Assembly: GCF_005771675.1 (NCBI RefSeq)
Contig: NZ_VAJM01000004.1
Span: 248,001 to 312,000 of the forward strand
Source of the DNA: Hymenobacter jeollabukensis
GTDB taxonomy: Bacteria; Bacteroidota; Bacteroidia; Cytophagales; Hymenobacteraceae
Reading direction: 5' to 3'
DNA: 64,000 nucleotides
Part shown: positions 15,374 to 58,164 of the stretch, in pieces
Layout of the letters: every line of letters begins with the position of its first letter
Position numbering within the stretch: the first letter of the stretch is position 1
The notes under the pieces: model-generated
The model's database searches: none
What the model was told of the DNA's origin: nothing
Seen by the model: the letters and a program-made list of their open reading frames with translations, nothing else
Position numbers and translations under genes: made by a program

Positions 15374-15376
15374 TTA

Positions 15377-15452
15377 GTTGTCAGTTGGGAGTTGTCAGTT
15401 GCGAGTTCGTGTGGGCATCTGCCCTGACAACTCCCAACTGGCAACTCCCAAC
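15377..15452. repeat. Intercistronic 7-bp-word inverted repeat (kinase/regulator gap)
   Basis: Starting 3 nt after the kinase stop, the left arm is four 7-bp words of the type GTTGTCA and GTTGGGA; the right arm (15425-15452) is the matching TGACAAC and TCCCAAC words. The loop is about 17 nt. The transcript would fold into a long hairpin between the two genes. See the finding on word palindromes. Confidence 0.85.
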
Positions 15453-15459
15453 TCACTTT

Positions 15460-31902: not shown

Positions 31903-31920
31903 TATGGGTGCTTGAGGCGT

Positions 31921-32033
31921 AGTGCCTAGTTGTTAGTGCCTAGTTGTTAGTGCCTGGTGCTTAGCGCGCGTGAGCGTCAGAACGACCCAAGCACCAAGCA
32001 CTAACAACCAAGCACTAACAACTAAACACTAAT
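31921..32033. repeat. 7-bp-word inverted repeat between pglD and pglE
   Basis: The left arm (31921-31962) is six 7-bp words such as AGTGCCT and AGTTGTT; the right arm (31989-32033) is their complement and overlaps the pglD stop codon. The 26-nt loop contains CAGAACG. Confidence 0.9.
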
Positions 32034-33424: not shown

Positions 33425-33440
33425 GGCCGCGCGGTCCACA

Positions 33441-33735
33441 GCCGCGAGCTTGCGGCGCCGGACCGCGAAGTCGCGGTACCGGGAAGTCGCGGTTTAGAAG
33501 CGCGCGGCTGCGGTTACAAGGCGCGAAGTCGTGGTTTAGAAGCGCGAGGTTGCGGTTGGAAAGCGCAAACCTGCGGCTCGGGGGCGGAAAGTTGCGGCTT
33601 AAGACCGCGAGGCTGCGGCTGTTGGCCGCGAAGTTGCGGTTTCAGGGCGCAAGGCTGCGGTTAAAAGCCGTAACCTCGCATTGGCAGACTGCAGGGTTGC
33701 GGCTCGAAGCTGCGAGGCTGCGGTCAAGTAGCCCG
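33441..33735. repeat. Degenerate tandem array with a 21-bp period (array 1)
   Basis: Eleven consecutive units of exactly 21 bp (33500-33730) are preceded by three less regular ones. Each begins near GCGCGARGTTGCGG and ends in a variable A/T-richer tail; many contain CCGC...GCGG that can pair. It occupies most of the 509-nt gap between divergent pglC and ispE; the rest (33736-33904) has no feature I recognise except a weak TTCTTTG just before ispE. Read in one plus-strand frame it gives a Ser-Ala-Arg-Leu-Arg-Leu heptad, but no start or family supports a gene. Confidence 0.9.
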
Positions 33736-33904
33736 AATCCGGCTGGTTGTCGGGTACCTAGTGGTCCAGCACCGGCCCGACGACGACCGGGCAGCCGGCC
33801 CCAAGCCGGCCGCCCGGTGCGGAACCTGGCGGCGTACCGCGAGCGGGTGGCCCGCCGCCGCTGCGGACTGGCGCGGTGGCCGCGCAGTGCCGTTCTTTGC
33901 GCCC

Positions 33905-56639: not shown

Positions 56640-57527
56640 TTACTGCCCCAGCTGGTAGCGGTACAGGTTGCCCTGCTCGGTGCTGATCATGAGCGTATTG
56701 TTATCCTGAAACACGGCACCTTCGGTCTGGCCCGCGCCGGGCAGGCGCACGGCGCGCGGGGTGGTCTGGGTGAAGTTGCCGCCCGACACGGGGCAGAGAA
56801 ACAGCTCCTCGCGGCCCAGCAGGGCCAGCGTACGGCCGTCGGGGCTCAGCGCGGCGTCGGTGACTTCGCCGGCCACGGCAATCTTGCCCAGCAGCTGCGC
56901 CGTTTGCTTGGCCGGGCCGTCGGCCTGCAGGCGGTACACCTTGCAGGTGCTGCCCTGGCCGCGGTCCTTGGTGAATAGGTAAATGCCGCCGTTGTACCAG
57001 AGCGAGGCCTCGCAGTCGAAGTTGCGCTCCTTCTTGCCGGGCGGAAACTCCTGTTGGTCGGGGTAGGTGAAGCGGATGCTGCGCACGGCGGCATCGGGCT
57101 GGCGCGGGTCGAAGCGGTAGATGGTCAGGTCGCGGCGGTCGTTGTTGTTGTTGCCGCAGTCGCCGATGTAGAGCACGCCCTGGTTGTCCTGGGTCACCGA
57201 TTCCCAGTCGACCTGATTCACGCCGGGCACGGGCAGGGACTTCACCAGGCTGCCGTCGGTGCGCACGAGGTAGAGCGTGGGCTCGGCCCCGTCGTCGCCG
57301 TGGGTGTAGAAGGTGCCGGCCTCGGGGCCCAGGGCTAGGCCCGAGCTTTCTTTGACCTCCGAGCCCATGTGGCCCACCTTAGTCAGGCCGGCAATGGGGT
57401 TCATCACCGAGGTTTTCTTTCCGCCTTTTTTGCCGCCGCCTTTCTTGCCCTTGCCGTCCTGGGCTTCGGAGCAGGCGGCCGATGTCAGCAGGGTCAGGCC
57501 CAGCAGGCCCGCAACGATTCGATTCAT
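56640..57527 (-). CDS. Lipoprotein with predicted beta-propeller domain
   Basis: 295 aa. Signal with lipobox 'LTSAACS', a Gly/Lys-rich linker, then repeated beta-sheet blades ('GLALGPEAGTFYTHGDDGAE', 'LYIGDCGNNNNDRRDLTIYR', 'VTDAALSPDGRTLALLGREE'). The pattern resembles SdiA-regulated/SMP-30-type propellers, but no catalytic site is recognised. Anchored in the envelope. Start 57527 chosen because the longer frame runs through the 21-bp repeat array. Confidence 0.78.
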   Translation of the reverse strand: MNRIVAGLLGLTLLTSAACSEAQDGKGKKGGGKKGGKKTSVMNPIAGLTKVGHMGSEVKESSGLALGPEAGTFYTHGDDGAEPTLYLVRTDGSLVKSLPVPGVNQVDWESVTQDNQGVLYIGDCGNNNNDRRDLTIYRFDPRQPDAAVRSIRFTYPDQQEFPPGKKERNFDCEASLWYNGGIYLFTKDRGQGSTCKVYRLQADGPAKQTAQLLGKIAVAGEVTDAALSPDGRTLALLGREELFLCPVSGGNFTQTTPRAVRLPGAGQTEGAVFQDNNTLMISTEQGNLYRYQLGQ

Positions 57528-57639: not shown

Positions 57640-57828
57640 CGGGCGTCCGCAACCGGCCCGGTACCGTTCGGCACGCCGCCAGGCGCCTCCGCAAGCGCCC
57701 CGGGAGCGTCCGGCACCCGGCCACGAACGGCAGGAACGCCGCCACGAGCCTCCGACAGCGCCCCGGGTGCGTCCGGAACCTCCCCATGAGCGTCCGGAAC
57801 GTTCCCAAGAGCAATGTTTGGCCCTGCG
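57640..57828. repeat. Degenerate tandem array with a 21-bp period (array 2)
   Basis: Eight consecutive 21-bp units (57640-57807) plus one decayed unit. Units centre on GCGTCCGGAAC-type sequence and alternate in their last five bases (CCCCG or CCCA), hinting at a 42-bp super-unit. Lies in the 409-nt gap between yidD and the propeller lipoprotein, both minus; the rest of the gap shows no feature. Same period as array 1 but a different word. Confidence 0.88.
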
Positions 57829-57936: not shown

Positions 57937-58164
57937 CTACTTGTCCGGCACCGGGTCGTAGCCGAAGCCGCCCCAGGGGTGGCAGCGGCCGATGCGGCGC
58001 AGGGCCAGCCAGCCGCCGCGCCAGGGGCCGTGGCGGCGCAGGGCCTCGGTGGCGTAGGCCGAGCAGGTGGGCTGGTAGCGGCAGGTGGCCGGCTTGAGCG
58101 GCGAAATCAGGTGCCGGTACACCCACACCAGGGCCAGGAAAGAGTACTTGAACAGCGCGGACAC
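57937..58164 (-). CDS. yidD: YidD, membrane protein insertion efficiency factor
   Basis: 75 aa. '[20 protein letters not shown]' and '[20 protein letters not shown]' are the family signature, with three conserved Cys. A small membrane-bound protein that helps YidC insert proteins. No ATG; the GTG at 58164 gives the usual short N-terminus, and another GTG at 58194 is possible. The usual neighbours rpmH, rnpA and yidC are absent. Confidence 0.88.

Follow-up and report, generated by a model that had tools for sequence, protein, structure and literature searches.

The intergenic space between yidD and a lipoprotein gene of Hymenobacter jeollabukensis is occupied by eight direct repeats of 21 bp, and the question is whether a repeat of this length is peculiar to the locus or belongs to a general type of element with a conserved length and a free sequence, as a sequence-only reading had proposed. 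We have studied it within the window (the whole stretch of 64,000 nucleotides analysed, positions 248001-312000, within a genome of 6.18 Mb). The array, here array 2 (57641-57808, minus strand), starts about 120 bp after the stop of yidD (57937-58164, minus strand; PF01809, E 3.7e-30), which is located upstream. Downstream is the lipoprotein gene (56640-57524, minus strand), which has a weak, sub-threshold Phytase-like match (PF13449); its counterpart in the closely related Hymenobacter edaphi shares 96% identity with it, those of H. gummosus and Hymenobacter sp. 15J16-1T3B 86-88%. A leader, ACATTGCTC (57809-57817, minus strand), directly precedes the first unit, and from it the units follow head to tail on the minus strand at 57788-57808, 57767-57787 and so on to 57641-57661, with the word nYGGGAAnGTnYCGRACGCTC and zero indels (57640-57828). 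Identity at lag 21 was 0.53 (0.58 over 57643-57815), a level never reached by 500 first-order shuffles, in which the best of lags 15-29 had a mean of 0.37 and never exceeded 0.48. The description of eight exact 21-bp units is thus borne out, far above the shuffled controls. The 42-bp duplication step that had also been suggested for array 2 was not recovered: identity was 0.67-0.71 at lag 63 versus 0.58-0.62 at lag 42 and TRF reported a period of 63 with 77% matches, the higher-order step being 63 bp.

A 42-bp step is found in the other array of the window, array 1 (33431-33737), with an identity of 0.70 at lag 42. This array has about 14.6 units of 21 bp between divergent genes and a single indel close to its left end, and its word, GCGCGAGGTTGCGGTTnnnnn, is partly dyad-symmetric and unrelated to that of array 2. 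When the complete window was scanned (147-bp windows, threshold 0.56), two places came up at lag 21, namely array 2 and array 1 (near 33498), and no place at lag 20 or 22. Repeats of 7 or 14 bp (GTTGTCA type) form a class of their own; in the window they lie at 15376-15454 and 31920-32032, and the very stable hairpins (z about -8) formed by these inverted arrays might perhaps act as two-way terminators. The same class was found elsewhere in the genome at L051:8457 and 15728, L027:9797 and 17769 and L056:4731, all five in convergent intergenic spaces. Another segment of the window, 2180-2440, is GC-rich with weak mixed periodicities (9, 24, 39, 42, 57 and 63) and repeats of the Gly/Ala/Pro type, and is probably a low-complexity coding stretch.

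In order to establish how special period 21 is, we have used a sample of 60 genome stretches plus the window (1.26 Mb, genes called by a simple hexamer model), a few of the stretches having been picked after earlier pattern matches (L009 and L015 entered in this way). Counting those of 60 bp or more, the sample contained 756 intergenic spaces. Using 63-bp windows and a threshold of 0.60, lag-21 periodicity was detected in 18 of them, while lags 20 and 22 were detected in none of the 756. Twelve of the 18 are true 21-bp arrays, whose strongest lags include neither 7 nor 14, and the remaining six are 7-bp arrays (GTTGTCA/TAGGAGT kind). The comparison with lags 20 and 22 had been set beforehand as the one that could overturn the idea of a general element, and with 12 places against zero and zero the idea survives. 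Lag 21 is accompanied by its multiples 42 and 63, and apart from the 7-bp arrays and a handful of scattered single matches nothing else stands out in the intergenic spectrum. A length of 21 bp corresponds to two turns of B-DNA; lags 10, 11, 31 and 32 gave none or at most two matches, so that the unit is one of two turns and not of any integer number of turns. Array 2 is therefore one of many short non-coding intergenic tandem arrays (about 8-18 units each) in which the units are always 21 bp. Excluding the targeted stretches and the window, their density is about 8 per 1.1 Mb, from which we estimate, by extrapolation from the sampled stretches, that the whole genome carries roughly 40-60. Nine relatives (200 kb from each of two genus mates, plus seven more distant genomes, other genera included; about 1.1 Mb in all) yielded no 21-bp array, and, as far as sampled, the arrays are limited to some Hymenobacter lineages.

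The unit profiles were compared across all rotations and on both strands. Family A comprises array 2, L009, L050 and L056, and in all of them the first unit begins immediately after the leader ACATTGCTC, which differs by one base in L056 and is also kept in H. edaphi and H. gummosus. Family B includes L020 and L071; in other genomes it recurs in G006, at the ortholog of L071 and at a second site, and in G002 at the ortholog of L020. A third family (C, L021 and L054) has weaker profile support, and the words of array 1, L015, L025 and L065 fall outside all three. The idea that all arrays hide one shared word was rejected, as the profiles support A and B, weakly C, and no overall relation. Dyad symmetry is found in some words (array 1, L065 and the arrays of Hymenobacter sp. 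ASUV-10) and is missing from several others, so a palindrome was also rejected as a shared trait. In strain ASUV-10 a near-perfect palindrome, ACCACTCnnGAGTGGT, is repeated every 21 bp at two places (L044:4256-4427 and L210:1501-1673); one of these arrays is next to yidD, has a leader-like GGAACATTACTC and runs opposite to array 2. After the family B array of L071 (13880-13935), and in its G006 ortholog, there is an inverted repeat GTCAGTCT...AGACTGAC with GAGCGnAGCGnAG in the loop, conserved between our genome and G006 and missing in G001.

The comparison between species shows arrays that come and go as well as arrays that persist. The same eight units of array 2 are found in H. edaphi, with a 1-bp insertion; the array is present in H. 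gummosus and absent from strain 15J16-1T3B. The L015 array is absent from G006, and so is that of L020, where the genes abut; the L021 array is absent from the orthologous places in G001, G002 and G006. In the edaphi-like G001 the gene flanking L071 is 98% identical, and nearly all units have changed to another word keeping the 21-bp period, the first unit being still of the old type. Some arrays appear young, with about 90% identity among units (L015 and its edaphi ortholog, and ASUV-10). Between H. jeollabukensis and H. edaphi, array 2 and L009 keep the same number of units, and L015 differs by one. Array 2, L009 and L065 have orthologous units in the two species, none having been gained or lost, with about 125 substitutions and only about 3 indels. 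Substitutions amount to 0.194 per site in the aligned arrays and 0.164 in other intergenic DNA, yet indels per substitution are 0.05 in arrays (12/240) versus 0.146 in other intergenic DNA (283/1943; Fisher p 8e-5). Within arrays, a phase-tracking alignment of 14 of them, amounting to 3.6 kb and about 169 units, required only 9 indels, and 8 of the 14 had none. Part of this shortage is ascertainment, since periodicity was how the arrays were found. Arrays simulated at the background indel ratio and passed through the same detection filter still retain 5-7 indels each, against 0.64 observed, a figure that fits an indel/substitution ratio near 0.01; detection bias alone is therefore insufficient, and the phase is protected, either by selection or by templated generation of units. 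In five arrays, columns that are alike from unit to unit also diverge less from species to species; the test is not fully independent, and its independent version, for family A, did not go beyond a trend (rho about -0.3, p about 0.2). The proposal of conserved length and free sequence thus stands as far as the length is constant, most words are unrelated and the phase is kept across species while the sequence changes; it has to be restricted in that words form families across loci and species and the arrays are confined to some Hymenobacter lineages.

What keeps the length could be sought in translation, in RNA or in the shape of the DNA. If the arrays encoded heptad-repeat peptides, a frame of 7 codons would maintain the period (21 = 3 x 7) and the indel shortage would resemble that of coding DNA; besides, array 2 is in frame with the lipoprotein, and when the family A units are pooled, most of their variable columns coincide with third positions of a single frame, although this is suggestive only. 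A plus-strand frame with Ser-x-Arg heptads does exist in both arrays, as had been noticed, but carries little weight because array 2 is open in almost every frame. The third-position hint was not borne out by the species comparison: the substitutions of array 2 between H. jeollabukensis and H. edaphi are even by codon position (11, 13 and 14), in contrast to the rsmI control (8, 4 and 26). Mod-3 tests of the individual arrays were non-significant after correction, stops are not avoided (155 observed versus 170 expected), the insertion in the edaphi array 2 is a frameshift, and L009 has a TAG in the same frame. The suggestion of heptad peptides is thus largely refuted, and we give it almost no credence. 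A long Gln/Leu/Lys-rich coding region with 21-bp periodicity at L021:18813-19560 is apparently, unlike the intergenic arrays, a true coiled-coil heptad. An array of hairpins in RNA, or a regulatory transcript with structure, would agree with the dyad-symmetric words, but several arrays have no symmetry and array 2 folds no better than its shuffles (z -0.67), which makes this reading very improbable. Rfam gave no reliable match, the single sub-threshold one falling outside array 2. Helically phased curved or flexible DNA, in which any word repeated every 21 bp would add bends in phase and curvature would be selected instead of sequence, would account for a length constraint with free words. In a wedge model with values entered by hand, L021, L054, L071 and L050 are in the top 1-10% of intergenic segments, but other arrays are average or low (L056 at the 4th percentile, L065 at the 10th, the ASUV-10 arrays at the 18th-44th). 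Curvature was accordingly rejected as a common trait, and since periods of 10-11 or 31-32 bp would serve equally and are nearly absent, we regard this explanation as improbable, if less so than the previous two.

The genomic context provides further indications. Arrays are found in divergent, codirectional and convergent spaces in proportions mirroring those of background intergenic orientations, by which a role as promoter operators was rejected. No Rep initiator gene or origin was found beside the arrays, and the neighbours examined with Pfam are housekeeping or unrelated genes. The leader plus first unit was absent from viral contigs, and the intergenic space of array 2 was absent from PLSDB; these searches thus gave no link to phages or plasmids. 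IS or MITE elements have defined ends with a target duplication and near-identical copies; family A has one fixed end (the leader), no second end was seen and the copies are diverged. CRISPR arrays consist of identical repeats with unique spacers of 25-40 bp between them; here the total period is 21 bp and the units are diverged, and this identity was discarded.

Plasmid iterons are tandem initiator-binding sites of about 17-22 bp, and our tentative preference, to which we give somewhat less than even chances, is that the arrays are iteron-like sites for DNA-binding factors arranged on one face of the helix. Each 21-bp unit would be a putative site for a DNA-binding protein, one protein per word family. 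Side-by-side binding would require the sites to share one helix face, as in plasmid iterons, and spacing would then be selected more strictly than sequence. The word families would reflect different proteins or drifting recognition. An array would be born by amplification of a seed unit, might occasionally be swept by a variant unit and would then age by substitution until lost. The shared word families, the fixed leader of family A, the depletion of indels, the constant period and, in five arrays, the slower change of the conserved columns support this reading; against it count the lack of a common word or uniform dyad symmetry and the absence of several arrays from the same place in some relative, from which no single array looks essential. 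As arrays occupy convergent as well as divergent spaces, a role at the level of the chromosome (DNA organisation, segregation or a protein sink) appears more likely than promoter control. A variant in which one phase-reading factor is served by many unrelated, replaceable words, so that length and not sequence is selected, seems to us unlikely. Nearly as likely as the iteron-like arrays is a family of selfish or neutral minisatellites without cellular function, in which the replication or repair process of the lineage duplicates DNA in a preferred 21-bp step and units are copied within loci and occasionally between them. The many loci at which arrays were gained or lost among closely related species, the young arrays, the sweep of L071 by a variant unit in G001 and the lack of preference in gene orientation all agree with it. 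However, the orthologous units and few indels of array 2, L009 and L065 mean that turnover cannot explain the interval between H. jeollabukensis and H. edaphi, and we know of no slippage process that gives 21 bp only.

Bacterial tandem repeats are usually viewed as locus-specific products of slippage with arbitrary length. Tandem arrays and iterons were already known; a genome-wide intergenic set with one length, several unrelated words and resistance to indels was not found in the literature searched, nor did the searches yield any paper describing repeats of this kind in Hymenobacter or an intergenic period fixed at 21 bp. As the repeat length is always 21 bp while the sequences mostly differ, the arrays suggest that the spacing itself, two helix turns, is what is kept. 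Such near-uniform intergenic minisatellites point to a protein reading two-turn steps or to duplication with a built-in 21-bp ruler, and either, if true, would be new. Eukaryotic satellites of constant monomer length also keep their length while the sequence diverges, and share with the arrays the higher-order repeats and concerted turnover; the arrays, in contrast, are bacterial and short, with many unrelated words per genome. Cyanobacterial STRRs are dispersed intergenic tandem repeats too, but with heptanucleotide units, and the Hymenobacter genome has its own separate 7-bp arrays. Bacterial minisatellites or VNTRs, the subject of a typing literature (for example PMC1315331), are likewise intergenic, subject to gain and loss and organised in higher-order units. 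Their copy number varies between strains and they have no preferred unit length across loci, whereas the arrays have one period genome-wide, word families common to unlinked loci, a shortage of indels and, in the arrays compared, almost no change in copy number between two species. The tandem repeats of Borg elements are also many, independent and lineage-specific, in genes and intergenic DNA, but their units are perfect, of varied length and essentially unique to each array, and the share of intergenic units whose length is a multiple of three is 14-38% (PMC9879509). Finally, the arrays differ from plasmid iterons in being many per chromosome, with several unrelated words, intergenic among housekeeping genes and with no initiator gene seen alongside. 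Both consist of direct repeats in tandem, each about two helical turns long, with a conserved core and variable positions, and the helical phase typical of iterons is found here as an exact 21-bp spacing, interrupted by 9 indels in about 169 units.
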